Source of the DNA: a virus | IMG/VR virus record: IMGVR_UViG_3300043540_000120 | Span: 1-27,308 of that record | Reading direction: 5' to 3' (one strand) | DNA length: 27,308 nucleotides | Shown: in pieces, positions 772-21,996 of the stretch | Layout: each line of letters begins with the position of its first letter | Position numbering within the stretch: position 1 is the first letter of the stretch | Made by a program: the position numbers and the translations under genes | Notes under the pieces: model-generated | What the model was told of the DNA's origin: nothing | Database searches by the model: none | The model's input: the letters and a program-made list of their open reading frames with translations, nothing else

Positions 772-1295
772 TGGAGATTGAGGTAGCGCGCTGCACGGGC
801 AACTGTTGCAACGACTTCACTTTGCCGTTCTCTCCGGCTGAACTTGAGCGATGGAAACGGCGTGTGGAGCGTGGGCAAAAAACAATCGTCCACGAGGGCA
901 TGGATCGTTCCCGTCACTCGGCCCACCAGCGCCCGAAGGACATGGCTTACGACGTTGAGATAGCAGAGTTTAAAAAACTGTTCGACATGCTCATCTTCAA
1001 GCGCACCGATCATCAGGCGGTCAACTCGGCTGATCGAAAGGCCAGCTCTAAGACCAAAGACAAAGGCGGATGGGCGTACCCACACAAAGGTTTTCGTTTC
1101 CATCACTACACCTGTAAGCACTTTGATTCTGTAAACAAATTGTGCCGTAACTACGAGAACCGTCCCAATATGTGTCGCAGTTACCCAGACGGCGGAGAAT
1201 GCAATTACCGTGGATGCACGCGTCGATGTGAATCAAAACCAATAAATGCCGAAAAGATGCTCAAGGACGAAAAACTTGAGGAGGCAATATTATGA
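771..1295 (+). CDS. YkgJ-like (UPF0153) metal-binding cysteine-cluster protein
   Basis: A GTG start at 771 overlaps the previous stop by one base. Of 174 residues, nine are cysteines. The arrangement matches the YkgJ/UPF0153 family: an N-terminal C-x3-CC (C8, C12, C13) followed by DFTLPFSPAELERW, then a second cluster C115, C125 and RPNMCRSYP (C135), with three more cysteines (C144, C149, C153) before a charged tail. Family members are thought to bind zinc or an Fe-S cluster; their reaction is not established. The middle (about 40-110) is basic and lengthens the usual spacing between the cysteine groups. The gene overlaps the downstream papain-fold gene by ATGA, so the two are probably co-translated. 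Family assignment is fairly safe; a role in the phage is not. Confidence 0.72.
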   Translation: MEIEVARCTGNCCNDFTLPFSPAELERWKRRVERGQKTIVHEGMDRSRHSAHQRPKDMAYDVEIAEFKKLFDMLIFKRTDHQAVNSADRKASSKTKDKGGWAYPHKGFRFHHYTCKHFDSVNKLCRNYENRPNMCRSYPDGGECNYRGCTRRCESKPINAEKMLKDEKLEEAIL

Positions 1296-1882
1296 TGGCA
1301 AGCGTGATTGCATGGTTCCGTGAGCGGATCTTAAGATCAATGTACCCGATACTGAAATGGTTGTCGGAAATTTACCCAGAGCGGTTAGTTAACGCTGATT
1401 TCGTTAAAGAGGTGCTGAGTAAAATCCAGCCAGGTGATGTGCTGGTCACTCGCGAGAACATGGTGATGACAAACTTCTTTATCCCCGGCTTTTGGACACA
1501 CGCGCTGATCTACGTGGGCGATGGAATGATCGTTGAGGCGACCGGCATCGGCGTTCACACGACACCGCTTGAGAAGCTCCTGTACTCGAAGGACCATGTG
1601 GCCGTACTCAGGCCCAAGTTCGCAGATGCGGTCCAATGCGCGCTGGCTGTGAACGAAGCCAAGAGCCTTGAGGGCGATCCATACGATTATGATTTCACCG
1701 GCGACAACCGCGCCTTTTACTGCGCTGAGGTAATCTGGTACGCATACGACCAGGCAATGAAACCAGCGCCGTCACCGTTCACCAAACGAATCACGTGGGG
1801 TGTTCAGACGGTTACTCCGCAGGACTTTTATCAAGCTACGGATAAGTTTGATTTGATTGCGAAGTTTGGTGGTCCACAATGA
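1292..1882 (+). CDS. Permuted NlpC/P60 (YiiX/YebB-like) papain-fold protein
   Basis: The start is ATG 1292, 7 nt after a GAGGAGG ribosome site; ATG 1295 is also in frame. The 196-residue protein has an N-terminal hydrophobic/amphipathic stretch (1-27), then IQPGDVLV, FWTHALIYVGDGMIVEA (H70, E82) and, more than 60 residues later, FYCAEVIWYAYD (C144). His before Cys is the order of the permuted papain-fold amidases of the YiiX/YebB type. Relatives hydrolyse amide or ester bonds in peptidoglycan or lipids. A lysis, entry or envelope-modifying role is plausible but unproven. There is no signal peptidase site, though the N-terminus could associate with membrane. It is coupled to the YkgJ-like gene upstream. 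Confidence 0.75.
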   Translation: MMASVIAWFRERILRSMYPILKWLSEIYPERLVNADFVKEVLSKIQPGDVLVTRENMVMTNFFIPGFWTHALIYVGDGMIVEATGIGVHTTPLEKLLYSKDHVAVLRPKFADAVQCALAVNEAKSLEGDPYDYDFTGDNRAFYCAEVIWYAYDQAMKPAPSPFTKRITWGVQTVTPQDFYQATDKFDLIAKFGGPQ

Positions 1883-2636: not shown

Positions 2637-2847
2637 GTTGACTGCGATAATTTGTTTACTGACGCTGGGGTTGGCGTGTTCATTCACGCCGCCCAAGCCG
2701 TTGCCAGAGCTGTGCTACAGCGACGCCAGTGGAAAACTTATTTGCCCTGATGAGAAGTGCGTGAAGGAGTTGGATGGGACGACGACGTGCTATCCGAAGA
2801 AACCTCACGACAAAATCCGCACGAAGGGCACTTCTTCCAACCCCTGA
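2626..2847 (+). CDS. Small Cys-rich lipoprotein, possible Rz1-like spanin
   Basis: Starting at GTG 2626, which overlaps the upstream gene (TTG 2638 is an alternative), the 73-residue product has a short basic N-terminus, a hydrophobic core and a lipobox-like end, LLTLGLAC-SF with C18 as the lipidated residue. The mature part begins with a proline-rich FTPPKPLPE and has four more cysteines (LCYS, LICPDEKC, TTCYP) that could form disulfides. Proline-rich outer-membrane lipoproteins of this size are typical of Rz1 spanins, but no Rz partner is visible next door, so another envelope role is possible. The 3' 110 bases are overlapped on the opposite strand by a zinc-ribbon mini-gene. Confidence 0.6.
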   Translation: MVTRLTAIICLLTLGLACSFTPPKPLPELCYSDASGKLICPDEKCVKELDGTTTCYPKKPHDKIRTKGTSSNP

Positions 2848-2899
2848 GTTTCGGGTGATCGAGCAAGTAGCTCATGCAAATCGGACAGATTTGATACAC
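2738..2899 (-). CDS. Minus-strand zinc-ribbon mini-protein 1 (53 aa)
   Basis: Reading the minus strand from GTG (2899-2897) to TAA (2740-2738) gives 53 residues beginning MYQICPICMSYLLDH. Cysteines sit at 5, 8, 24, 27 and 30, as ICPIC and KKCPSCGFC. This is the CxxC...CxxCxxC plan of a zinc ribbon. The stretch from Ile4 to Cys30 is 15/27 identical to the product of 3297-3449 (minus), with conservative changes elsewhere. Matching Cys, Pro and His codons differ at synonymous positions (TGC/TGT, CCT/CCG, CAC/CAT), as expected of selected protein-coding sequence. The tail after residue 33 is Ser/Thr/His-rich and antisense to the lipoprotein gene. There is no good Shine-Dalgarno; an AT-rich palindrome cluster lies 7 nt upstream. 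Function unknown; divergent from the HNH gene at 2969. Confidence 0.6.
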   Translation of the reverse strand: MYQICPICMSYLLDHPKLRGWKKCPSCGFCREVSSDSTSSSHPTPSRTSHQGK

Positions 2900-2905
2900 C
2901 CAACT

Positions 2906-2928
2906 ATTTTACCAAGTAAAATTTTACT
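2906..2928. promoter_or_regulatory. Nested AT-rich inverted repeats, candidate operator/promoter
   Basis: The 69-bp divergent gap between the minus-strand ribbon gene and HNH gene 1 contains ATTTTAC-CAA-GTAAAAT (2906-2922) and the perfect 14-bp palindrome AGTAAAATTTTACT (2915-2928). These give three alternating copies of one heptamer. This arrangement fits a dimeric repressor site or back-to-back -10 elements. No protein known to bind it is identified. Confidence 0.45.
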
Positions 2929-2968
2929 AGCGACTAAAGTTTAGGCCCAGACTCGCCGTTAGTCAGGC

Positions 2969-3313
2969 ATGGGCATCGTCAGTCACATCAAAGACCGCGT
3001 TCAAGGTAAAGTCCCCGCCGGCGCCAGGCGGAGTGGAAAGTGGCCGAAGGTAAGAGCAGACCACTTGGCCAAGCATCCGACCTGTGCGCTGTGCGGCGGC
3101 AATAGGAAGATTGAAGTCCATCACATCAAACCATTTCACTTGCATCCGGCGCTAGAGCTGGAGCCGACAAACCTCATCACGCTGTGCGAGAGCGGAGCCA
3201 ACGGCATCAATTGTCACCTTGCGTTTGGCCATCTCGGTAGCTTCAAGTCAGTGAATTCCGAAGTGGTCGCCGACAGCTCCCACATGGGAAACAAGATCAA
3301 GAACCGCCCTTGA
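2969..3313 (+). CDS. HNH endonuclease
   Basis: The 114-residue product has a classical HNH core: CALCGG (C39, C42), IEVHHIKPFHLHP (H51, H52), an Asn-Leu pair in EPTNLITLCE (C73), then NCHLAFGH (C82, H83, H88). The two CxxC/C-C pairs would hold a structural zinc and the His/Asn/His residues a catalytic metal. The N-terminus is basic and may contact DNA. Stand-alone HNH nucleases of this type include terminase-associated packaging nucleases (HK97 gp74-like) and free-standing mobile nucleases; context here does not decide. ATG 2969 has only a weak AGG upstream. The gene is followed by a hairpin terminator and flanked on both sides by paralogous minus-strand ribbon genes. Confidence 0.85.
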   Translation: MGIVSHIKDRVQGKVPAGARRSGKWPKVRADHLAKHPTCALCGGNRKIEVHHIKPFHLHPALELEPTNLITLCESGANGINCHLAFGHLGSFKSVNSEVVADSSHMGNKIKNRP

Positions 3314-3449
3314 CTAGGACTCTTATCCTAGTATTCTTTTCCACGATGTAACTTACGCAGTAAGCACAAGTCGGACACTTCTTCATCGCCTTGATGGTGC
3401 GATGATCGAGCATGTAGGCCATGCAGCGCGGACAGATTGGTGGTTTCAT
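3297..3449 (-). CDS. Minus-strand zinc-ribbon mini-protein 2 (50 aa)
   Basis: From ATG (3449-3447) to TGA (3299-3297) on the minus strand the product is 50 residues beginning MKPPICPRCMAYMLDH. Cysteines 6 and 9 (CPRC) and 25, 28 and 31 (CPTCAYC) follow the same plan as the ribbon protein at 2738-2899, and both keep Leu-Asp-His before the spacer and KKCP after it. The C-terminal tail is short, beta-like and basic (NTRIRVLVKGGS). A close AGGA precedes the ATG. The gene overlaps the last 17 bases of HNH gene 1 and its terminator in antisense, and is divergent from HNH gene 2 with a 44-bp gap. Role unknown; candidates are a nuclease partner, an antidote or a small transcription factor. Confidence 0.65.
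   Translation of the reverse strand: MKPPICPRCMAYMLDHRTIKAMKKCPTCAYCVSYIVEKNTRIRVLVKGGS
3313..3340 (+). terminator. Probable intrinsic terminator after HNH gene 1
   Basis: ACTAGGA (3313-3319), loop CTCTTA, TCCTAGT (3326-3332), followed by ATTCTTTT. The 7-bp stem begins on the last base of the HNH stop codon. The stem is AT-rich and the U tract interrupted, so termination may be partial. The same DNA codes for the tail of the minus-strand ribbon protein. Confidence 0.55.
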
Positions 3450-3462
3450 GGTCCTATTTGAC

Positions 3463-3498
3463 TCCATAACCCAATTATTGTAACAGTCCAGTTATGGA
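3463..3498 (+). promoter_or_regulatory. Inverted repeat spanning the start codon of HNH gene 2
   Basis: TCCATAAC (3463-3470) is the exact inverse complement of GTTATGGA (3491-3498), separated by 20 nt. The right arm contains the ATG start (3494-3496). In RNA the stem would bury the start codon; in DNA it could be a dimeric operator in the divergent gap between ribbon gene 2 and the nuclease. No other ribosome site is evident. Confidence 0.4.
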
Positions 3499-3937
3499 TT
3501 TTTGTCACACTTGTTCAGAAATTTTCCGCTATCGGACTTGGCACTCGATCAAACAGCGATGCTCACAAGGGTATGCGAAGCTGCGCATGACCGAGAAAGA
3601 CTTCAATCAGTGGTGGGACAGTCAGTACGACGCGATGAAGGCGCTGTACGACCGCGACCAGAAACCGAGCGTGGACCGCATCAATCCCGATGGACCATAC
3701 TCCCTCGACAACATTCAGGTGCGAGAACGATGGGACAATGTGCGCGAATCGCGCCGACGACCAAAGCGCCCGGTGATCGGCGTCAATGTGCGCACGAAAA
3801 AGCAGAAAAGATTTGCAAGCGTGACCGAAGCCGCTAATTTCGTTGATGGGCACAAAAGCAATATCGTCGCAGCGTGTGGCAAAGAGAACAAGACGGCGCA
3901 CGGCTGGCGTTGGCAATACCAGGGGAGAGATCGGTGA
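3494..3937 (+). CDS. HNH-type homing endonuclease with C-terminal NUMOD1-like domain
   Basis: The 147-residue product fits the phage homing-nuclease pattern: RYRTWHSIKQRC (about 12-23), an acidic/aromatic spacer with DFNQWWDSQYDAM, then KPSVDRINPDGPYSLDNIQV (about 58-77), the degenerate HNH core in which the D-R-I...N residues are characteristic. Residues 92-142 (RPVIGVNVRTKKQKRF, SVTEAANFV, NIVAACGKENKTAHGWRW) match the NUMOD1/IENR1 DNA-binding repeat of intron and free-standing homing nucleases. An extra CHTC lies at residues 4-7. It probably cuts a specific site in competing phage DNA and promotes its own spread. The start codon lies inside an inverted repeat, and the stop overlaps the next gene's GTG. 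Confidence 0.8.
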   Translation: MDFCHTCSEIFRYRTWHSIKQRCSQGYAKLRMTEKDFNQWWDSQYDAMKALYDRDQKPSVDRINPDGPYSLDNIQVRERWDNVRESRRRPKRPVIGVNVRTKKQKRFASVTEAANFVDGHKSNIVAACGKENKTAHGWRWQYQGRDR

Positions 3938-4451: not shown

Positions 4452-4703
4452 ATGAACGTGAAGCCAATCGAAGAATTTGAAAAGGACCTGCTCGACCGCT
4501 TCAGTGAGGAATGCGGCAGAGTCGACGAAAACACCAGGCGCGAGCCGACAGCCGAAGAAATGTTTTTCATTCGTGAACTGGCGATGCTAAACCATTTCGT
4601 TCAGCACGCGATGATGGGAGTGTCGAATCGGCTGGATGAGATCAACCAGCGGGTTCAAATGGCAATCGAAGAAGTTAAATTTCCAAACAGGGGTATTCAA
4701 TGA
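4452..4703 (+). CDS. Small hypothetical helical protein (83 aa)
   Basis: ATG 4452 follows GGGGGATCTTTTT, the right arm of a hairpin. The protein is acidic, entirely helix-forming and without cysteine clusters or membrane segments. Amphipathic helices occur at FEKDLLDRFSEECG and FVQHAMMGVSNRLDEINQRV. It ends in an ATGA overlap with the endolysin gene, which suggests co-translation with the lysis gene. It is too polar to be a holin as drawn. Function unknown. Confidence 0.6.
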   Translation: MNVKPIEEFEKDLLDRFSEECGRVDENTRREPTAEEMFFIRELAMLNHFVQHAMMGVSNRLDEINQRVQMAIEEVKFPNRGIQ

Positions 4704-5218
4704 AAATGACGACACGGGCATCTGCGATTCAGCGGTACGGCATGATCGACCTTGGGCACCAAGTGTGGCCAGGCCAGAGCAAATGGCTTGGCCTGCTAGA
4801 AGTGCCGCCCGAATTGCGCGGTAATTGGCTCGTTCTCGGATTGCAGGGGAGTTTGGTGAAGCACATCAACTGCAACGTCGACATGCACTTGCCTCTGCTC
4901 AACGCGCTCAAGGCGCTCGCATCGCTCGGCCTCACGAAGGAGTTGAAGACGTTCGATGGATGTTTCAACATCCGCGCGGTGCGCGGTTCGGCGTCGGTGT
5001 CCGCACACGCTTACGGCCTGGCAATCGACATCAATGCGTTCGAGAACAAACTAGGGAGCGCGGAGTCGAAGTTGTCGCCAGCGTTCGTTAAATGTTTCAC
5101 AGACCAAGGTTTTGACTGGGGTGGAAATTTCCACAGCCGCAAAGATCCGATGCACTTCAGTTATTGCTGGGAAGGCTCGCCGTCGCAAGAAAACGCTCCG
5201 CACCTGATTTATCCGTAA
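4700..5218 (+). CDS. Endolysin, M15-family peptidoglycan peptidase
   Basis: The 172-residue protein carries the M15 (VanY/L-Ala-D-Glu peptidase) zinc motif SAHAYGLAIDIN (101-112), giving ligands H103 and D110, and the second motif KDPMHF with H152. D149 is the likely partner of the metal-bound water. Size and layout match phage M15 endolysins that cut peptide cross-bridges of peptidoglycan. There is no signal peptide, so it would need a holin or similar. The N-terminal 60 residues (LGHQVWPGQSKWLG and on) may form a small extra domain. ATG 4700 overlaps the upstream stop; ATG 4706 is also possible. Confidence 0.88.
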   Translation: MKMTTRASAIQRYGMIDLGHQVWPGQSKWLGLLEVPPELRGNWLVLGLQGSLVKHINCNVDMHLPLLNALKALASLGLTKELKTFDGCFNIRAVRGSASVSAHAYGLAIDINAFENKLGSAESKLSPAFVKCFTDQGFDWGGNFHSRKDPMHFSYCWEGSPSQENAPHLIYP

Positions 5219-5678: not shown

Positions 5679-6344
5679 GTGGTCGATAAATCCCTTAAAA
5701 TCCATTTTGAACTTGACCTGTCGAAGGACTCTGATCGTCAGTTAATCGAAATCATTACGCGCGTAAAAGCACTGCAAGCACAGGGTTTAGAGCCAAGCAT
5801 TGTCGGTGCGGCGACGGAAACGGCAGATCCTCAAATGCCGAGCGTGAATGAAGTGCGCCGCGCCGGTGTCGCGATGACAGAAGCGGCTAACGAGTTGGCC
5901 GAAGCGATCCCTGACGGCGGCGAACGCAAGAAACTGAACACGAAGGAGCGCGCGGCGGTCGCTGCAAGGGCGCGCTGGGCACGTGACAAAGCCAGAAAAG
6001 AAGGAAAGCCGCTACCGCTCACCGCCAAGGAATTAAAAAAAAAAGAACATAGCTCCACTGACGCGTTAGACTACTCGCAGGCCGAGCAACAATCATTTGA
6101 GCAGTTTCCACAAGTTGATGGCATTGATTTCAGCCAAATGTCTCTTCAACATCGACACGATTCCGTATTGTCAGCATTGATGAATGAATCTAGCCATTTG
6201 CCCTATCCAGATGGGCGTGAAATCATGGCCGGAACATGGGAGCGCGGCGAAGAGGCTGCGCTCGACTCCGAATTTGAAAACCCATTAGACGACGACTTCG
6301 TAAGGAGGGTGCATGAGCAAGCTGACAGATTCGACCAAGAATGA
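5679..6344 (+). CDS. Hypothetical protein upstream of terminase (221 aa)
   Basis: GTG 5679 follows AGGAGA (somewhat distant) and AGGCGAGA. The N-terminus (LKIHFELDLSKDSDRQLIEIITRV) looks like a beta-strand plus helix. The centre (about 85-125) is strongly basic, with KLNTKERAAVAARARWARDK, a form common in DNA-binding helices. The C-terminal half is acidic and helical. Its position ahead of the large terminase makes a small-terminase role thinkable, but no helix-turn-helix is evident and three small genes intervene. An A10 run (6035-6044) within AAG/AAA codons could promote slippage. Its 3' end overlaps the next gene by 32 bp. Confidence 0.65.
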   Translation: MVDKSLKIHFELDLSKDSDRQLIEIITRVKALQAQGLEPSIVGAATETADPQMPSVNEVRRAGVAMTEAANELAEAIPDGGERKKLNTKERAAVAARARWARDKARKEGKPLPLTAKELKKKEHSSTDALDYSQAEQQSFEQFPQVDGIDFSQMSLQHRHDSVLSALMNESSHLPYPDGREIMAGTWERGEEAALDSEFENPLDDDFVRRVHEQADRFDQE

Positions 6345-6471
6345 CAAAAAAAAGCCGGAAAAAAAGTTTGAAAAAGCACAGCCGGAAAAGCACGAGACGT
6401 ACAACGGAAAACGCGACGGCGAAAGCCTCACGAAAGTTTATCAACCACCGACACCTGATCTGAATAAGTGA
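6313..6471 (+). CDS. Small Lys-rich hypothetical protein (52 aa)
   Basis: ATG 6313 follows TAAGGAGGG at ideal spacing, the best ribosome site in this stretch, and the frame runs to TGA 6469-6471. The product (MSKLTDSTKNDKKKPEKKF and on) is very hydrophilic, Lys/Glu-rich and probably disordered, ending in a short Pro segment (VYQPPTPDLNK). It overlaps the previous gene by 32 bp in another frame. It has two long A runs (6346-6353 and 6359-6365). Unknown function. Confidence 0.6.
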   Translation: MSKLTDSTKNDKKKPEKKFEKAQPEKHETYNGKRDGESLTKVYQPPTPDLNK

Positions 6472-6472
6472 C

Positions 6473-6625
6473 GTGGGCGAGATTGTTAACGTGAAGTTTC
6501 GGATCGTTGAACCGATACGCGGTGGTCCGCAACAACCACGCAAACCGAGAAGAGATTTTTTTTATTGGATATTAGTCGCCGCCGTAATCGCATTTTTGAT
6601 GTATGCGTGCGCGAAGGCAAGTTAG
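6473..6625 (+). CDS. Small single-pass membrane protein (50 aa)
   Basis: The frame from GTG 6473, directly after the previous stop, to TAG 6625 encodes 50 residues. GTG 6491, preceded by GGCGAGA, is the alternative start and gives 44 residues. The first 28 residues are basic (RGGPQQPRKPRRD), followed by a clear transmembrane helix FFYWILVAAVIAFLMYA and a short tail. The positive-inside rule predicts N-in, C-out. Tiny membrane proteins like this can be holin-like or anchor host-takeover factors. The endolysin lies about 1.3 kb upstream, so a holin role is only a guess. Confidence 0.5.
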   Translation: MGEIVNVKFRIVEPIRGGPQQPRKPRRDFFYWILVAAVIAFLMYACAKAS

Positions 6626-6634
6626 GAGGGAGAA

Positions 6635-6874
6635 TTGGCTCGTCACGGATATGGACGGACAATCGTCGACACATTCATAGTTATCCCACAGAGATCCGCT
6701 ACCTGTCAGGAGTGCGGGACGACCTATCACGGGCCGAAAGAAATGGTTACGTGCAAGGGCTGTGGGGAAAAACTCAACACGAACGACGTGCGCTGCAATA
6801 AGAAAGTGCCAATTGGCGTGCAGGTCGTGACCACACTGCGAAGAAAATCCGCAGGGCGCGAGAATGGATCGTAA
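6635..6874 (+). CDS. Zinc-ribbon hypothetical protein (79 aa)
   Basis: TTG 6635 is the likely start because TTAGGAGGGAGAA precedes it at correct spacing. Residues 24-43 contain CQEC and, after a 12-residue loop, CKGC (C24, C27, C40, C43), a standard four-Cys zinc ribbon, with one more cysteine at 54. The C-terminus is basic. Such proteins in phages may bind DNA or partner with packaging or transcription enzymes. The 3' end overlaps the terminase gene by 11 bp, implying coupled translation with it. Confidence 0.65.
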   Translation: MARHGYGRTIVDTFIVIPQRSATCQECGTTYHGPKEMVTCKGCGEKLNTNDVRCNKKVPIGVQVVTTLRRKSAGRENGS

Positions 6875-8627
6875 GGATTTTTATGAACAACAATATTTGT
6901 TTAGCCTTACGGTTCTCGACAGAGCACTGGATAAATTTCCGCGCCTAAAATATGCCGTCGTCCACCACGTGAACATCCGTGGTGAGCAGATGCGCTTTGA
7001 CGATAAGCCGTACCTAGTTGAAATCTACAAGGACACTGCGCCTGAAATCGTACTCCAGTCGTCGGTGCAAACTGGTAAATCTGAATTTCTGATCGTGAGC
7101 GCACACTCCTGGGCCGAGCGCGGACTCCAAGTGCTGTACGTGCTGCCGACGATTGAATTGAGAAACCTGTTCGTCGCCAACCGGGTCGACAAACTATACG
7201 AGAACACCACCCATTACAAAATGCAGCTCGTGAAATCGACCGGGACCTCCAATTCTCGCGGTCTCAAGCACTTCGGCTCAATGGGTGGTGCGATCTTCTT
7301 CGCCGGCTCAAACTCAGCCGGCACATTCATCGAAAAACCGATTGATCTGGTGATCGGCGATGAAACGGACAGGTTCGACCAGGGGAACTACGAGAAGGCC
7401 GATGACCGGATGACCGCGAGTCCGTGGAAGATGAAGTACGAGGCGTCCAACCCCACGGTTGACAAATACGGCATCAACCTACGATACCGCCAGAGCGATC
7501 AGCGCGAATGGTTTGTTAAATGCAAGTCGTGCAATTACTGGCAGCCTCTCGATTGGTTCAAGAACGTGGTCCGACAAACGGATGACGACACGTGGCTGTT
7601 GATCGACGAAGACTGGCACATGGGATCGGACCAGGACATCAGATGCTTCTGCATCCGATGCGGAGCCAAGCTCGATAGGTACGACACGAAGGGGTGCTGG
7701 GTTCCAAAGCATCCAAACATCAAAAAGACACATGGCTATCACATCCACCAGCTTCTCTCGTCATACGTCCGCATGGATGGAATGTGGCTAAAATTCCAGC
7801 TTGCCCTCCACGACGACACCAAGATGCAGGTGTTTTACAATTCCATGCTTGGGCTCCCGTTCGCCGGCAAAGGATCGAAGCTCACAGACGAACTGCTGAA
7901 CTCCTGCAAACAGCCGTATCTGATGCCCAGCCGCGCGGAAAACTGTTTTATGGGCGTTGACGTGGGTAAGGTTCTGCACGTCGTGGTGAGGCAGCTAGTG
8001 CCCGGTGGACGCATGAGACTGGTCTACGCCGGCACCGTCCGCGACTTCGAGGACCTGGACTATCTGTTCGCCCGGTTCGACATCCTTGGGTACGTTATTG
8101 ACGCAATGCCGGAAACGCGAAAGGCGACCGAGTACGCGAAGAAGCACACCGGGCGCGGCGCGATTTGCCGTTACCACAACGGGCTCGACGAGATGCGCGA
8201 GGGACAAACCGAGGACGGGTGCAAGGTCCTCACCGTTGATCGTACACAGATCATGGACCGCGTGATGAAGTGGTTTTTGGAAAAGCGGCACATCATTCCC
8301 CAGAATGCCCAAAGCCTCGACCGTGGCGACTATTACGATATGCTCAAAACCCCGACGCGGATCTTGGATGACGAGAAAAAAGTTTACAACTGGATGGGCG
8401 ATCCTGACCACTACTATCACGCCGAAGTGTACTGTCTGCTTGCGTACTTAGCACGAGGAGACATGAGCGTGATAGCAGTAAATCCAAACGAGCCAATGCA
8501 AAAAAAGGTGCCCAACAAATTCGAGGATGCGATTCAATTTCCACCAGGAACCCCGCAAGACATTATCGACCATTATCGAAGGATCTATGAAGCAACAAAA
8601 GCATCGCGTAAGATAGAGGAAGAATGA
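6864..8627 (+). CDS. terL: Terminase large subunit, GpA-like
   Basis: The 587-residue protein shows a packaging ATPase followed by a nuclease. The Walker A-like QSSVQTGKSEF is at about 65-75 and Walker B DLVIGDETD at 161-169. A Cys-rich insert follows: CKSC (220, 223) and CFCIRC (261-266). Next come HGYHIHQLLSSYV and FYNSMLGLPF, which are typical of the lambda GpA family. The RNase H-like nuclease follows, with GVDVGK (D366), VIDAMPETR (D413) and a late DHYYHAEVYCLLAY segment. The enzyme cuts concatemeric DNA and drives it through the portal. The gene overlaps the zinc-ribbon gene upstream, and the portal gene follows 18 bp downstream. Confidence 0.93.
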   Translation: MDRKDFYEQQYLFSLTVLDRALDKFPRLKYAVVHHVNIRGEQMRFDDKPYLVEIYKDTAPEIVLQSSVQTGKSEFLIVSAHSWAERGLQVLYVLPTIELRNLFVANRVDKLYENTTHYKMQLVKSTGTSNSRGLKHFGSMGGAIFFAGSNSAGTFIEKPIDLVIGDETDRFDQGNYEKADDRMTASPWKMKYEASNPTVDKYGINLRYRQSDQREWFVKCKSCNYWQPLDWFKNVVRQTDDDTWLLIDEDWHMGSDQDIRCFCIRCGAKLDRYDTKGCWVPKHPNIKKTHGYHIHQLLSSYVRMDGMWLKFQLALHDDTKMQVFYNSMLGLPFAGKGSKLTDELLNSCKQPYLMPSRAENCFMGVDVGKVLHVVVRQLVPGGRMRLVYAGTVRDFEDLDYLFARFDILGYVIDAMPETRKATEYAKKHTGRGAICRYHNGLDEMREGQTEDGCKVLTVDRTQIMDRVMKWFLEKRHIIPQNAQSLDRGDYYDMLKTPTRILDDEKKVYNWMGDPDHYYHAEVYCLLAYLARGDMSVIAVNPNEPMQKKVPNKFEDAIQFPPGTPQDIIDHYRRIYEATKASRKIEEE

Positions 8628-8645: not shown

Positions 8646-10409
8646 ATGCCAACTGAGAACGAAAACAGCAAGCTACCGACGCCGCAGCAAGCAGAGGCGC
8701 AGCGCGAGGCCAAGATCAAAGCCTCCATAGGCTTCGACGATGTTCTGCGCTACCTGGCGCTTGGAATTACGCCGACTGCTCCGCGATTGCCAGAACAGGC
8801 AATGCGATATGGTTCTATGTTTGGCGGATACCCGAAGGGCTACACGAACAAACTCGGCGCCAAGGGGACGATCAGCTACTACGTGCTTAGACAGCTCGCC
8901 ACGCGCTCACCGCTTTTGTCGGCAATCGTCGCCCGCCGAACATTCCAAACCACTAGACATGCGCGCATCGCCTCGAAGTCCAAGAAAACCGAGGTTGGGT
9001 TGAACGTCGTCCACAGGCGCCAGCACGACAAAGATTTCAAGGTTCCCGAGGCTTTCAAAAACCTGTGCCGCGAAGCCGAGCAGATGATGATGAAGCCGTG
9101 GAGGGTGTTTTGGGATGAAGGACGAGTCTTCAAAGACGTTGAGCCGAACCTCGCTGGATTTATTTCCAAGGTCACTGAGGATCTTCTGGTTATCAACCGC
9201 CCGTGCGTGGAGTTGGGATTGGACCCCCTGCGCATACCGCGCGCGTTCGGCGCAATAGATGGCGCTAATGTTATTCCGACATTTGCCGCCCTCAAATATC
9301 TGACCTCGATCAACCGGGACATTCCGAAAGGCTGGGAGGAGTCATACCAGCAATACCGCCGCATCATGCAGCAGATGTCGGAAAAATATAAACTCGACCT
9401 TGACGAGCGCACTGAGTACATCTACCTGCTGTCGGGCCGCCCGGTCGCTGGGTTCCGATCCGACGAGATCGTGATTGGTTCGCAGTTTCCTGTGAGTGAT
9501 GTTCGTCACGCCGGCTATCCGCCGTCACTGACTGAGCGCGCACTCTTTATTATCCTGGCTGAAATTTTGGCGATGACCTCCAACTCCCGCTACTTCGAGT
9601 TTGGCTCGATGGCAGAGGTGCTGGTCACGATTAAAGGAAACGTCCAAGACAAGCACGTGAAGGATCTGGAGTCGGTCCTCAAGGGCAATATGTCTGGCGT
9701 TCAAGGGATGTACCGCGTGCCGTTGATTGCCACCCCTGGAGGCAAGGACGACATTGAAGTGGTGCCGATCAAACAGAACCACAAGGATATGCTGTTTGAC
9801 GTTTACATCCAGAAGTTGACCAACCTCGCGTGCGCCGTGTTTTCGATGCACCCGAGCGAGATCAACGAGGCTCCGCGCGCCGGCGACAACTCCGGCGGAT
9901 TGAATCAGGCAAACCAAACCAAGCAGATCAACATGGCCCAAGAACAGGGCCTTGAGTCGACGCTGGAGCATCTGAAGACTTCGATCTTCGATCCGATCCT
10001 TGAGCGTATCGACCCAGATTTGGTGATCGAATGGGACTATGGTCAAAACGAACAAGAACAAATTACTGTCACCCAGCTTTATGGTCCGATCACGACCGTG
10101 AATGAGCGTCGGCAGATGATGGGGCTTGATCCAATATCGGAGGAGTTAGGTGGAGAGGTCATCGACAACCAGTTCATTCAAGCGCGAAACCAGCTTCAGC
10201 AACAGCAAGAGGCAGCCCAGGCTCAAGGAGGGCAAGGTGGGCAAGCTGGGGGACCTGCTCCAGCCACATCTAAAGGAAATCCTGGGGGCGAAGGAACAGG
10301 GGAGCCTCCAATCGAAGAAGACGAGGACGAAGGAAAGCCAGACTATGAAAACGAATCAGTCGACGACAGGCTCGCAAGACTTGCCTCCAAGTCGGGAAAA
10401 AAGAAATAA
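8646..10409 (+). CDS. Portal protein
   Basis: The 587-residue protein follows TerL directly, as portals do, and has portal features. An N-terminal helical part contains YYVLRQLATRSPLLSAIVARR. The core has VTEDLLVINRPCVEL and RIPRAFGAIDGANVIP. The clip/stem region has RSDEIVIGSQFPVSDVRHAGYP and a helix with TERALFIILAEILAMTS. The segment LTNLACAVFSMHPSEINE followed by a Gly/Asn loop is characteristic. The C-terminus (from about 520) is Gln/Gly/Pro-rich, then acidic, with a basic end (SKSGKKK), and is the part overlapped by the cold-shock gene. It forms the dodecameric DNA gate at one capsid vertex. ATG 8646 has only a modest ribosome site (AGCAGGTG). Confidence 0.88.
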   Translation: MPTENENSKLPTPQQAEAQREAKIKASIGFDDVLRYLALGITPTAPRLPEQAMRYGSMFGGYPKGYTNKLGAKGTISYYVLRQLATRSPLLSAIVARRTFQTTRHARIASKSKKTEVGLNVVHRRQHDKDFKVPEAFKNLCREAEQMMMKPWRVFWDEGRVFKDVEPNLAGFISKVTEDLLVINRPCVELGLDPLRIPRAFGAIDGANVIPTFAALKYLTSINRDIPKGWEESYQQYRRIMQQMSEKYKLDLDERTEYIYLLSGRPVAGFRSDEIVIGSQFPVSDVRHAGYPPSLTERALFIILAEILAMTSNSRYFEFGSMAEVLVTIKGNVQDKHVKDLESVLKGNMSGVQGMYRVPLIATPGGKDDIEVVPIKQNHKDMLFDVYIQKLTNLACAVFSMHPSEINEAPRAGDNSGGLNQANQTKQINMAQEQGLESTLEHLKTSIFDPILERIDPDLVIEWDYGQNEQEQITVTQLYGPITTVNERRQMMGLDPISEELGGEVIDNQFIQARNQLQQQQEAAQAQGGQGGQAGGPAPATSKGNPGGEGTGEPPIEEDEDEGKPDYENESVDDRLARLASKSGKKK

Positions 10410-12311: not shown

Positions 12312-12614
12312 ATGTTAGATTGGCTTGCAAAGGCAAAAAAAGTGGAAAAGCGAGTCGACCAAATCGAGGACGACGAGAACAACTCAATCCAGGGATCGTA
12401 CACCGATCACCACCGGAGCCCATACCAGCGCCGGATGGAATTGGAGCCGATGCACGGAGATGAGTTGGAGCAGTTCAATCGCGCGTGCGACAAACTAGGC
12501 AAGAAGTACGACACCGAGAGCCTCAAGGACATCATCGAGTACGGAATGGATGACGGATGGTTCAAGGTCGACAAGAACGGGATGCTCCGCGTGAACATGG
12601 AGTTGCCAGAATGA
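12312..12614 (+). CDS. Hypothetical helical protein (100 aa)
   Basis: The frame is open further upstream, but ATG 12312 lies just after the previous stop with GGAG at 12303-12306, so it is chosen. The product begins MLDWLAKAKKVEKRVDQIED, again with a hydrophobic-KAK motif, then a charged helix, a His/Arg/Pro linker (DHHRSPYQRR) and an acidic helical C-terminal domain (EQFNRACDKLGKKYDTES, DIIEYGMDDGWFKV). The end overlaps the helicase start by ATGA, implying co-translation. It may be a small partner of the helicase-like protein. Confidence 0.62.
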   Translation: MLDWLAKAKKVEKRVDQIEDDENNSIQGSYTDHHRSPYQRRMELEPMHGDELEQFNRACDKLGKKYDTESLKDIIEYGMDDGWFKVDKNGMLRVNMELPE

Positions 12615-15600
12615 GATTGGTTGTAAAAGCGAAGGCGCTTGAAAAAATTCGTCACTACGAGCCGGTTGTCTTCGTGGGCCGCGATTTTATCATCAAGTCA
12701 CGAACGGTTAAGGCCCATTACCGCCGGCTCCCGAATGGAAAGACCATTTACATTGGCCAGCACACCGACAAACGAAACGCCGCCAAGAGAAACTCTGAGA
12801 AGTTCAAAAACAAAGTCGTGTACGCCGACGAGAAGGAAACTCATTTCGTCAATCACAAGGGCGAAATAAAAAAATACCCACACCAAAAATTCAACGAGCT
12901 ATCTCAGGACGACATTCACGCTCAGTTGAATCGCGGGATGCCGGTAGACCAGGGTTTGGCTCAAAAAGTGTTTATGACCGAGAACGGCATAACCGACATG
13001 AACGATTACCTCGACGCGCTCATTGGCGACGAGAAGAACAAAGCCGATGCGCTCGGTAAAAAACCTGAATTCACAAACCGTCCAGATGCAATGAAGTGGC
13101 TCCAAAAAAACAAAATCAAGGCCACGCTCAAGGACCTCCAGCAGACCTATGGTGAAGTGACGACGCCGGCAAAGGCCGCAACGAAGATGGTCAATGGACG
13201 ATCTCGGCTTGCGGAGCATTTCCAGGACGCCGAGGAAAACGAGGGCTTGCCAGAGGAGCATCGTACAATTGCCCACATGGCCAATCGGCACGCAGAAAAG
13301 GCAATCGAGTCACAAGAAGCTGAGATGGCCAGCATTGAGGCCGCCAAACGCGCGACGCCCGACGACTGCCCAGAGATCCAATCAATGTCATCCAAGCTGC
13401 AATTTTTCGGACACCAGGCTCAGTCGCTCGCACAACTCAATATGCTCAAGAAAGCCATTGTCGACGTGGACATGGGCGGCGGAAAAGGTTTGATTCTTCC
13501 GGCTGACGCGATGGCCCTCATGAGCCAGGGAAAGGTCAAGAAGCCGCTGATCGTCGTTCCGGGCGCCACGCTGGAGCAGAATGCTGCGAAAACGCTGGAG
13601 TACACCGAGGGAAAGATGAACGTCTTTCTCATCAGCAATCAGGTGATGAACGAACAGTTCGACCGTGACCCAGAGAAGCTACAGGAGGCGATTCAAAAGG
13701 CTCCTCCGAATACGATCTTCATGGCCTCTTACGACATATTTGCATACCAGGATCGCCGCAATCAGGATGAAAACGAACCAGAAGAGGACCGTTTCGAGCG
13801 GGCCGAGGCGATGGGCGGCGCCGGCTTCGACTACATCGCGCTGGATGAGTCGCACAACATAAAGAATGTGCAATCAAAGCGGTTCAAGGCGATGCAGCAC
13901 ATGACGCACATCCAATATAAGCGCGTAGCGTCTGGAACATTCCTGTCGAACAATCCGAAGGATGTGCTCGGACAAATGCTGTTTCTTCATCCGCACATGA
14001 GCATTTCGGAAAATGACTTCGAGAAGAAGTATGGGCGCGAGGAGTCAGCGAAGGGCATCAAGTGGGACCGCAATAAGCTGAAACAATTGCGCAGCGACCT
14101 CCAGAACCTCGGAATGATTTCGCTACGCCGCTCGGCGTGGATTCACCTGTTGCCAAAGCGTGAAGAGAAACTGTCGGTCGTCAAGCTCGACAAAATGCAC
14201 GAGCGTGTTCACGAAGGCGTTTTGAATGAAGTGATGGACGAATTGGAAAAGGAAATGAGAAAGGACGCTCGTTTGCGCCGGCTTTTGGAGTCGGATGACG
14301 AGATCGACGGTGACGAGGAGTTACCACCCAGCGTCCTTGGTCCGTTGAATCTACTCCAGGCAATCACCGATCACCCGCATGAGTTGGCCGTCCAAATGAA
14401 AGAGGCCCTGGCCGACGTGAAGGAAATGCGCGCAAAGCACAAAGCCGGCGAACTGGACGACGAAGAGTACGCGGAAATGGAACAAATGCGCATAGCACTT
14501 TCCCGCCTGAGCCCAATGGTGAGAAAGGCCGTGCAGTCGCTTGAGGGAGTTGTGAGCCCGAAGGCACACGACGTGTACGACAAGATCGAGGAGCATTTTA
14601 AGGATAAGAAGAACGGCAAATTCATGGTGTTCGTGCAGCGGAAGAATTCCGCCAACCACATAATCAACAATATGCCGGAGAAGTGGAAAAAACACGCGAT
14701 GTACTTCGACGCCTCAAAAATGAACGATCTGCCGTCGTTCACTCAAGATCCAAATGGTCCGAAGATCCTCGTGGCCGTCGATGCGTCGATCAAAGAGGGC
14801 ATGAATATGCAAATCGCAAATGCCCAGTACCGCTACGACCACCACTATTCTCCAGGTAACCAGGAGCAGGGATATGCACGCATTTGGCGATTTGGACAAG
14901 ATAAACCTGCTAAGATCCATCTTGGCATTGTCGATGGTGGTATTGACGTTACAAAGTACGCTCGACTCATCAGCAAGCTCCACACAAACCAGATGGTCAT
15001 TTCGGATATGGAAGACGATGACACTTTCGAGGCATACAAACTTTCCCTCGACAACATTCGCAATCATCGCGGTGCTAATATTCTTAGTGACTACACTGAT
15101 ATGAACCAAAAGATCCTCGATTTCCAACACGAGGAAAACAAAACTCTACAAAAAAAGTTTGGTTCAAAAGGATTCAAGAGGTCGTCGCCGAAACAAATCG
15201 GCGGCAAGGACGCGAAGCAGATGCACGGCATCGGTCCTTATATGAGCGACATCAATTACGAGAAAACGCCAATGCCGAGCGACTCGGAGTTGAACGATCT
15301 TCTTGGCCATTTCCGTGATGCGCACCGAAAGTTGGGACACCCTGAGCGTGTATTCGACACCGGCATCCAGGACGAATACCTGCCAGAGATCATCAAAATT
15401 TATTACCGAAACAAAGCGCGCGGCGGCGGCAAAGAATTGCTCGATCACACAATTGAACAATACGATTCTGAGCTTGAACACAAACTGACCGACCGCGAGC
15501 GCAAGTTGATCGAAACGACTCTGAAGCCGATGCTGGAGGGTAAGCGCCACACTCCGCACGAGTCCGTGAAGGCCAAAGATGCATTCGAGTATTGGCGCCA

Positions 15601-15925
15601 GCACTTGAAGCTGCCTAAAAACAAAGAGGCAGAGAAGGCCGCTATTGAGGACATTGGATTGCTATCCAATTGGGTAAAGAAGAATAAGGTCGACCTCGAA
15701 AACCTTGGCCAGGACAGTCGTGGTTCCGAGCGCGGCATCGAGAACCACAAGGAACTGGAAAAATTTTGGGACCAGCACGAGAAAAAATTCGGCGTCGCGA
15801 TGAGCAACAAACACAAAAAGCTCGTGAACAACGTGGTCGGAATGCTCCAAGAAGTGAGCGGAGGATGGCCCAAGATCAAACATCAATATGAGGATACGTT
15901 TGGCCTTGAAGATGGCGAGGAATAG
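12611..15925 (+). CDS. SNF2-type helicase-like ATPase (1104 aa), candidate virion protein
   Basis: Start ATG 12611 in an ATGA overlap gives MRLVVKAKALEKI, the operon's N-terminal motif. Residues 30-52 (SRTVKAHYRRLPNGKTIYIG) resemble a basic motif seen in phage structural proteins. The ATPase core follows: DVDMGGGKGLI (286-296, Walker A with Gly where Thr/Ser is normal), KKPLIVVPGATLEQN, FDYIALDESHNIKN (motif II DESH, 412-415) and RVASGTFLSNNP. The second RecA lobe has KFMVFVQRKNSANHII, ASIKEGMNMQIA and YSPGNQEQGYARIWRFGQDKP (motifs V and VI). The last 250 residues are helical and unknown. No methylase domain is present. Its place among head genes recalls the capsid-packaged, anti-restriction DarB of P1, but that is analogy. 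Confidence 0.85.
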   Translation: MRLVVKAKALEKIRHYEPVVFVGRDFIIKSRTVKAHYRRLPNGKTIYIGQHTDKRNAAKRNSEKFKNKVVYADEKETHFVNHKGEIKKYPHQKFNELSQDDIHAQLNRGMPVDQGLAQKVFMTENGITDMNDYLDALIGDEKNKADALGKKPEFTNRPDAMKWLQKNKIKATLKDLQQTYGEVTTPAKAATKMVNGRSRLAEHFQDAEENEGLPEEHRTIAHMANRHAEKAIESQEAEMASIEAAKRATPDDCPEIQSMSSKLQFFGHQAQSLAQLNMLKKAIVDVDMGGGKGLILPADAMALMSQGKVKKPLIVVPGATLEQNAAKTLEYTEGKMNVFLISNQVMNEQFDRDPEKLQEAIQKAPPNTIFMASYDIFAYQDRRNQDENEPEEDRFERAEAMGGAGFDYIALDESHNIKNVQSKRFKAMQHMTHIQYKRVASGTFLSNNPKDVLGQMLFLHPHMSISENDFEKKYGREESAKGIKWDRNKLKQLRSDLQNLGMISLRRSAWIHLLPKREEKLSVVKLDKMHERVHEGVLNEVMDELEKEMRKDARLRRLLESDDEIDGDEELPPSVLGPLNLLQAITDHPHELAVQMKEALADVKEMRAKHKAGELDDEEYAEMEQMRIALSRLSPMVRKAVQSLEGVVSPKAHDVYDKIEEHFKDKKNGKFMVFVQRKNSANHIINNMPEKWKKHAMYFDASKMNDLPSFTQDPNGPKILVAVDASIKEGMNMQIANAQYRYDHHYSPGNQEQGYARIWRFGQDKPAKIHLGIVDGGIDVTKYARLISKLHTNQMVISDMEDDDTFEAYKLSLDNIRNHRGANILSDYTDMNQKILDFQHEENKTLQKKFGSKGFKRSSPKQIGGKDAKQMHGIGPYMSDINYEKTPMPSDSELNDLLGHFRDAHRKLGHPERVFDTGIQDEYLPEIIKIYYRNKARGGGKELLDHTIEQYDSELEHKLTDRERKLIETTLKPMLEGKRHTPHESVKAKDAFEYWRQHLKLPKNKEAEKAAIEDIGLLSNWVKKNKVDLENLGQDSRGSERGIENHKELEKFWDQHEKKFGVAMSNKHKKLVNNVVGMLQEVSGGWPKIKHQYEDTFGLEDGEE

Positions 15926-20400: not shown

Positions 20401-21996
20401 ATGTTTACATCAACAAATTCCCTGGATCAGCAGATACTTGACATGGTGAGAAAAGCTCTTTCGGTTGACGCCGCGACCGGCACCAGCATCGCGCCGTTCA
20501 TCAAAGAGGACCTGGAAGGCGAAGCGTATGTACAATTGTACAGCGACACCGATCCCGCCCAAATGGCTCTCTTGAAAGACTTGCCTCGCCAGCCTGCACA
20601 GCAGGTCAACCACGAATTCACTCTGGTGGATCGTTACGGAAACCATCGCGCTAAGGCATCCTTCTCCGCGAATGGTCTGCCCCCGCAAGCAAACTTCGAG
20701 GGCTCCCGTAAGTTCGTTCAACTCAAGCTGTACGGTAAAACGTCAGCGGTCCAAGGGTTGACCGTCCTCCAGAACACCGTTCGTGCGCTGGGTCAGCCCG
20801 ACGTGGCCTCGTCTAACGACATGGCCGTGAAACTCCTGCTGCAATATCAGATCAACGCTGATTTGTACCAGGCCGACACTCGCTCGACACTCGACGCCAA
20901 TATCTTCAAAGGGTGCTGGCAGCTCATCGACGAGTTGACGAAGAGTCCTGCTGCGGTCACGCCGTTCAGCAATAGCGACATCTTCATCGACTTGCGCGGC
21001 GAGCCGCTCTTGCCCGATGGAGCCAAGGGTATTCGTTCCCAGGCAGTCGGTTTTACCAAACGAAATGGCGCCCTCCGCCGGATCTACATGGCGCCCGAGG
21101 TCCTTGAGAACATCGAGGACAACCTAGATCCAGCCGCTCGCTTCATGTTGCCGCCGCAAGGCTCCAACGCGAAGATGATTATCGGTAACAACGTGGACGG
21201 AATGCGCGTCCAAGGTCAGATCGTGTACTTCCGTCGCGATTCGGCCTTGTCTTCGTTCGTTCGTTCCGGTGGACCGAATCTCGACCTGATTCCCGGAGCG
21301 CCAGCAGCGTTCGCGTTCGGTGGATCTGGCGCGGGCACCATCACCCAACCCGCAGTGAACAACTCGGGCGTGGGCCAGTTCCTCACAAGTGAGGGATTGC
21401 GACTGACAGGCATCGTCTACATCGTGACCGCTGTGAACAGCGTCGGTGAAGCGATTGCCAGCAACGTGTCCAACTCGGTCAACGCCTCCAACGGCAAGAC
21501 GATTGAATTCACGATCACTCCTCGTGGTGACGAGCTTTCTTTCCGCATCTACCGTGGGTACGTTTCCGACACGGCTCAGGCCGACACGTTCAAGGCCCCG
21601 ATTGTTCTCGATCCCGAATTCATTTTCGAGATCCCGAACGGCGTGGCGCTGGGCAATACGACGCCGATCACGGTTGTCGATGCCAACCTCTACATCCCCG
21701 GCACTAGCTGGGCTTGGGGTTCAGACATCTGGTCGCAGAACGCCGCCGCCTTGGACCGTGGCGACGCTCCGACCTCTTTGGCCAACGAGTACGTTGAAGG
21801 AAAGTCCGCTGCGGCGATTGCCCAGTTGACCGGCCTCTTCGAGTTCGACCTGGCTAAATTGGGATGGCTGTATTCCAACAAACTGTTCGCACACGTCTTG
21901 GCACCGCAAGTGCCGCGCCCGTGGGTGAACGTGGTTTGGATGAACGTCGGAGGCATCCGTCGTAAGAAAGCCCTCCTTGATCGAGCCCTGAGCTAA
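20401..21996 (+). CDS. Major capsid protein
   Basis: The 531-residue protein follows protease and scaffold and is followed by the strongest terminator in the window, as expected for the most abundant product. The N-terminal part (MFTSTNSLDQQILDMVRKAL) is helical and may be the cleaved tag. HK97-like elements follow: a long strand/loop region with FVQLKLYGKTSAVQGLTVL, a helix rich in Ala/Gln with NDMAVKLLLQYQINADLYQA, and IYMAPEVLENIEDNL. Residues about 338-430 (IVYIVTAVNSVGEAIASNV and FRIYRGYVSD) look like an inserted Ig/FN3-type domain, which may form a surface decoration. The last 90 residues return to the capsid fold (FEFDLAKLGWLYSNKLFAHV). No named family can be fixed without a structure search. 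Confidence 0.85.
   Translation: MFTSTNSLDQQILDMVRKALSVDAATGTSIAPFIKEDLEGEAYVQLYSDTDPAQMALLKDLPRQPAQQVNHEFTLVDRYGNHRAKASFSANGLPPQANFEGSRKFVQLKLYGKTSAVQGLTVLQNTVRALGQPDVASSNDMAVKLLLQYQINADLYQADTRSTLDANIFKGCWQLIDELTKSPAAVTPFSNSDIFIDLRGEPLLPDGAKGIRSQAVGFTKRNGALRRIYMAPEVLENIEDNLDPAARFMLPPQGSNAKMIIGNNVDGMRVQGQIVYFRRDSALSSFVRSGGPNLDLIPGAPAAFAFGGSGAGTITQPAVNNSGVGQFLTSEGLRLTGIVYIVTAVNSVGEAIASNVSNSVNASNGKTIEFTITPRGDELSFRIYRGYVSDTAQADTFKAPIVLDPEFIFEIPNGVALGNTTPITVVDANLYIPGTSWAWGSDIWSQNAAALDRGDAPTSLANEYVEGKSAAAIAQLTGLFEFDLAKLGWLYSNKLFAHVLAPQVPRPWVNVVWMNVGGIRRKKALLDRALS

Follow-up and report, generated by a model that had tools for sequence, protein, structure and literature searches.

Two short minus-strand genes in a tailed-phage segment encode members of what appears to be a small, undescribed family of zinc-ribbon proteins, absent from the reference libraries searched. 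In other phages, genes of this family would be lysis-cassette components, lying just 5' of the gene for an M15_3 peptidoglycan peptidase or, in a single instance, fused to it, so that an undescribed zinc-ribbon family would be added to phage lysis cassettes. An accessory role in lysis is, tentatively, the most likely function of the two proteins.

Layout of the phage segment

The DNA analysed, referred to here as the window, is a 27,308-base IMG/VR virus record in which almost every gene lies on the plus strand. It encodes the terminase large subunit (6864-8627, PHROG_675) and, by profile match, a portal (8646-10409) and a major head protein (20401-21996). No close relative was found among cultured phages, the best terminase identity being about 25%, and an Rfam search of the window gave no match. 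Near the window start, a plus-strand gene (771-1295) encodes a protein with a CxxCxxCC-type metal-chelating domain (PF03692, E 1.5e-6). The head-gene region contains, in an unusual place, a plus-strand gene (12557-15925) for a 1122-aa SNF2-like helicase resembling DISARM DrmD (NCBIfam E 2e-7, far under the family cut-off). The plus-strand gene at 25119-27212 encodes a long repetitive protein, probably a tail fibre, with degenerate internal repeats whose antisense frames look like paralogous ORFs in the open-frame pair comparison.

Two zinc-ribbon genes on the minus strand

Copy 1 (2738-2899, minus strand) starts with GTG and encodes 53 aa, whereas copy 2 (3297-3467, minus strand) starts with ATG at 3467 and encodes 56 aa. 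Both were assigned from the ORF list and from homologues, and copy 2 also from the identity of its core. The sequence-only reading had given copy 2 as 3449-3297 with 50 residues; this frame exists, an internal ATG at 3449 allowing an alternative 50-aa product, but the first start lies 18 nt earlier. Both proteins follow the pattern C-x2-C-x6-H-x8-C-x2-C-x2-C and share the core ICPxCMxYxLDH(x6)KKCPxCxxC, with 15/27 identical residues. This common zinc-ribbon plan, proposed beforehand, is confirmed by a local alignment score of 107, whereas none of 20,000 shuffles scored above 56 (extreme-value p about 1e-10). Of the 392 open frames of 40-400 codons that the window contains, no other pair scores as high. 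At the DNA level the zinc core is underlain by a 66-nt direct repeat with 73% identity. In copy 1 the core is conserved at 2887-2810, while the C-terminal 23 residues are not.

The copies differ at 6, 9 and 12 nucleotides at codon positions 1, 2 and 3, respectively, and five Cys, Pro and His codons differ solely at third positions, in agreement with the earlier proposal that such differences reflect selection on the protein. The dN between the copies is about 0.26-0.28 and dS is saturated (undefined by NG86, 3.3 by ML), and the estimated dN/dS is well below 1, although imprecise on 27 codons. Plus-strand reading frames across the repeat either have stops or show dN > dS. Judged by this comparison, no plus-strand frame accounts for the substitution pattern, and a conserved plus-strand element, raised earlier as a possible cause of the similarity, is not borne out. 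On the sequence evidence it is close to certain that both frames are real genes, and their selection at the protein level as zinc-ribbon genes is supported.

Searches with the copies against Pfam, PHROGs and NCBIfam gave nothing above a curated cut-off or with an E below 0.001, the best scores being those of sub-threshold zinc-finger models in these libraries. Ten of the longest other minus-strand frames have no PHROG match, which agrees with the description of the copies as the only clear minus-strand genes in the window, though the copies match no library either.

Neighbouring genes

Both copies are located between a gene for a C92 papain-like (YiiX/NlpC-type) hydrolase (1292-1882, plus strand; PF05708, E 1.2e-20), a possible cell-wall enzyme upstream, and a gene for an M15_4-type endolysin (4700-5218, plus strand; PF13539, E 1e-15; PHROG_2649 endolysin, E 7e-10). 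Neither copy adjoins an endolysin in the window, the nearest clear one being the M15_4 enzyme, 1.2 kb from copy 2 and on the opposite strand. M15_3, the partner type of the family elsewhere, was not found in the window.

Each copy diverges from an endonuclease gene. For copy 1 this is an HNH endonuclease gene (2969-3313, plus strand; PF01844, 23.4 bits, above cut-off; PHROG_589, E 6e-12), with 69 bp separating the start codons. Copy 2 diverges from an HNH/endonuclease VII-like homing-type gene (3494-3937, plus strand; PHROG_1035 endonuclease VII, E 1e-6; PHROG_20162 HNH, E 3e-6), with 26 bp between the start codons. The two endonucleases match different PHROG families. A consensus scan placed a terminator-like hairpin, ACTAGGACTCTTATCCTAGT + ATTCTTTT (3313-3340, plus strand), directly past the HNH stop and inside the non-conserved 3' end of copy 2, where it would act as a putative terminator.

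The sequence-only reading had described the two genes as hidden by antisense overlap, which is overstated. Copy 2 is essentially intergenic, overlapping the plus-strand ORF 2969-3313 by 17 nt only, with the remainder in a plus-strand gap. Copy 1 shares 110 nt of its 3' part with a short plus-strand ORF of 73 aa (2626-2847); only 38 nt of these (2810-2847) belong to the zinc core, and the coding status of this ORF is unproven. Its ribosome-binding score is weak, and it has no match in Pfam, PHROG or NCBIfam. By eye, its product shows a hydrophobic N-terminus followed by a Cys and a Pro-rich stretch, and is possibly a spanin-like lipoprotein. Minus-strand mini-genes such as the two copies are likely to be skipped by gene callers.

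Promoter-like sequences and start codons

An extended -10-like box precedes each copy on the minus strand, namely TGGTAAAATAGTTGGG (2899-2914) for copy 1 and TGTTACAATAATTGGG (3470-3485) for copy 2. The two motifs are 13/16 identical and have the sequence TGnTAnAATAnTTGGG in common. The -10 box of copy 1 (2906-2914) ends 6 nt before the GTG, and that of copy 2 (3477-3485) ends 9 nt before the ATG at 3467. The motif was derived from these same two sites, which makes its shared form post hoc; a fairer statistic is the count of the extended -10 pattern TGNTANAAT (TGnTAnAAT), which occurs at three sites in the window on both strands, two of them preceding the two copies. A standard -35/-10 promoter scan listed neither site, and both are seen only by an extended -10 reading.

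The Shine-Dalgarno sequences at the first start codons are poor (-2.8 and -3.1 kcal/mol), while most plus-strand genes have good ones (often -6 to -12). Transcription usually starts 6-8 nt past the -10 box, which would place the 5' ends of the mRNAs on the first start codon or only a few bases from it. Both copies thus combine an extended -10 box 6-9 nt upstream with the lack of a strong Shine-Dalgarno sequence, as expected for leaderless-type genes, and this suggests that each may have its own promoter and a near-leaderless mRNA. Two further sequence features are possible operators: a short inverted repeat (CCATAAC...GTTATGG, 3464-3497), the arms of which hold the start codons of copy 2 (3467, minus strand) and of the plus-strand gene at 3494, and a perfect 14-nt palindrome, AGTAAAATTTTACT, upstream of copy 1.

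Homologues in other phages

Neither copy, nor the terminase, gave a match when used as a single query sequence against viral contigs. A pair alignment of the two copies was needed as a query and recovered the records L003 and L004, after which a four-row alignment added L008, L009, L010 and L011. The DNA pattern CxxC-x6-H-x4-GWKxCxxC added L019, and a DNA pattern of fixed spacing that required Tyr, Asp and AAR gave no match. The homologues comprise seven records, six of them distinct (L010 and L011 are the same locally), all of which are uncultured phage contigs. Every homologue is an open frame with no internal stops and with the conserved cysteines, as the sequence-only reading would predict for genuine genes. 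The CxxC, L, H, K, C and C positions are invariant in 8/8 aligned sequences from seven phage contigs, including the window, as are both CxxC pairs, and most members contain a basic GWKKCP segment. Third positions are the most divergent in all 15 pairs formed by the six members of equal spacing. As free proteins, family members are 31-82 aa long. The pattern match L016 and the genome match L012 were rejected since no such gene is present in frame, and L005 was rejected as a generic zinc-ribbon protein.

Within the core, copy 1 shares 18/26 residues with both L003 and L004, and copy 2 shares 17/26 with L003, compared to 14/26 between the two copies. Each copy is thus nearer to L003 than to the other copy, meaning that the duplication is old or that the copies were acquired separately. 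By these identities they are not a recent local duplication, and their designation as paralogues is correct in that the genes are related, but they do not form a simple pair.

No true family member was found in cultured phages, in plasmids or in one genome for each of 84,980 prokaryote species (a single match was rejected), although members may be missed at such a length and search sensitivity. As to a shared phage backbone, the PHROG_675 terminase is absent from six homologue records, a distant portal match occurs in the L004 phage only (27%), and the window plus-strand proteins gave no match to the homologue loci.

Gene context of the homologues

In L004, L008 and L010/L011, the zinc ribbon lies directly 5' of an M15_3 peptidase gene and overlaps that gene. 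In L009, zinc ribbon and M15_3-type peptidase form one in-frame fusion protein of 182 aa (5998-6543). An internal Met is found at the boundary of this fusion, at the aligned position where the stand-alone enzymes of L004 and L008 begin, and the gene could, by its sequence, yield both fused and separate forms. Each of the five M15_3-bearing records has a single M15_3 match, which adjoins the zinc ribbon or is fused to it. The four M15_3 linkages are perhaps one inherited association and not independent events. In L003, the zinc ribbon comes after the gene of a small membrane protein and is one gene upstream of a PHROG_7 lysozyme (E 1e-56), whereas in L019 it closes a tail-gene operon with no lysis gene seen beside it. 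A GIY-YIG-like gene, recognised by eye, follows the endolysin in L008.

Placement on the minus strand is not a property of the family, as the genes of the other phages are co-directional with their late-gene neighbours, except in L009, where the zinc ribbon is read with the fused peptidase. Duplication and the reversed strand are seen only in the window. Related M15 enzymes of the cultured or complete phages examined (HTVC010P, B40-8, MW202573 and DSL-LC04) have no family member beside them, and the partnership between zinc ribbon and M15 is therefore strong within the set found, yet optional.

Predicted structure

AlphaFold2 models residues 1-30 of copy 1 with a pLDDT of about 90 in a zinc-ribbon-like shape, while the tail is uncertain. 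One predicted zinc would be held by the two CxxC knuckles, with the conserved His and the third Cys as possible extra ligands. The nearest solved folds are zinc ribbons of the RPB9, TFIIB and PriA type, all with weak scores (Foldseek E 0.12; VIA Z 3.9 with an rmsd of 8.3 over 42, and for another RPB9 chain Z 3.6 with an rmsd of 2.3 over 37). The model tentatively supports a zinc ribbon and points to no function. For the L009 fusion, the peptidase was modelled but the zinc ribbon was not (pLDDT 38-53), and this model is uninformative on the packing of the two.

Possible function

The repeated adjacency and the one fusion to an endolysin favour a lysis accessory as the role of the family. The zinc ribbon would work with the endolysin, either as a factor in timing or as a detachable module for binding or holding. 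In the window phage, the gene occurs twice and would have departed from the endolysin operon, and the copies would be expressed as near-leaderless mRNAs from their own extended -10 promoters on the opposite strand. Each copy would form a divergent unit with an HNH-type endonuclease, which may have helped to move it there. A lysis accessory expressed in this manner is the most likely of the readings considered, and is put forward tentatively: the window copies have no adjacent endolysin, the L019 member has no adjacent lysis gene, and zinc ribbons of such a shape are commonest in nucleic-acid machinery.

The fold makes a nucleic-acid-binding regulator the main rival, albeit a rather unlikely one. 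In this reading the proteins would attach to DNA, RNA or RNA polymerase and tune late or lysis genes, with the antisense-strand promoters providing separate timing and the adjacency to endolysins elsewhere reflecting co-regulation. The RNA-polymerase-subunit and TFIIB zinc ribbons among the nearest solved folds, the basic GWKKCP segment of most members and the position of the copies outside the plus-strand operon with their own extended -10 boxes are consistent with such a role. However, no named regulator in Pfam, PHROGs or NCBIfam is resembled, the fold matches have low scores (Z below 4, Foldseek E above 0.1), sharing a zinc-ribbon fold is uninformative on function, and the fusion to an M15 peptidase better suits a lysis partner.

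It is less probable still that the zinc ribbon is a passenger, or moron, serving as cargo or helper of the divergent HNH-type endonuclease and kept by mobility instead of a role in lysis. The short distances between the divergent start codons of both pairs, the different PHROG families of the two endonucleases, the remaining locus having no genes in common with the homologue loci, and the GIY-YIG-like gene in L008 all agree with this explanation. On the other hand, the loci of L003, L004, L009 and L019 showed no evident HNH-type gene next to the zinc ribbon, and three of the four have a lysis gene in a neighbouring or almost neighbouring position. A more elaborate scheme, in which a detached endolysin domain gave rise to twin counter-transcribed leaderless zinc ribbons, each with a homing endonuclease in a divergent promoter unit, and in which this mobile cassette would supply the late operon with antisense RNA and with a lysis regulator that is timed separately, is decidedly improbable. 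Lastly, chance frames, with the similarity arising from a repeated DNA element or plus-strand constraint, might be suspected from the 66-nt repeat and the non-conserved C-terminal tails, but are refuted by the intact-frame homologues in unrelated phages and disfavoured by the third-position-biased substitutions and the stops in several other frames, which leaves this explanation hardly credible.

Under the lysis-accessory reading, a small lysis-linked gene can quit its operon and survive on the minus strand, in units that probably have promoters of their own. In addition, the fusion to the M15 peptidase provides a directly testable hypothesis on the partner of the zinc ribbon.

Comparison with known systems

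The open-licence literature searched contained no account of a zinc ribbon within a lysis cassette. The top viral fold match is A0A6J5KVT7, an unannotated and uncharacterised protein of 81 aa from an uncultured Caudovirales phage in BFVD (probability 1.00, E-value 0.066), which is 38% identical over 34 columns and similar in length to the L008 member. In phage DSL-LC04, a small gene three genes upstream of the M15A endolysin and near the holin encodes a 'Zinc ribbon domain-containing protein' (WJZ48122.1). This protein was rejected as a family member, being without the Y-x-L-x-H and GWKKCP signature, and only its location is analogous. The zinc ribbons of RPB9/RPC11, the TFIIB N-terminus and PriA have two CxxC knuckles on a short beta hairpin, as is predicted for the phage family; however, these are domains of transcription or replication machines, whereas the phage family occurs as a free protein, and no sequence or fold score between them is significant.

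A parallel in organisation is offered by T1-like phages (Drexlerviridae) such as KanT1, which have a stand-alone SH3 gene beside the lysis module that is fused to endolysins elsewhere and is occasionally HNH-linked (PMC13164509). The SH3 protein and the zinc ribbon are both small stand-alone domains that neighbour a lysis cassette, are fused to endolysins in other phages and would serve as optional accessories, a likeness of organisation. They differ in that the phage family has a zinc ribbon and not an SH3 fold, and the window has two copies, reversed and apart from the endolysin. If the role in lysis is true, phage lysis would gain a kind of accessory that is based on a zinc knuckle, as opposed to a membrane or SH3 domain.
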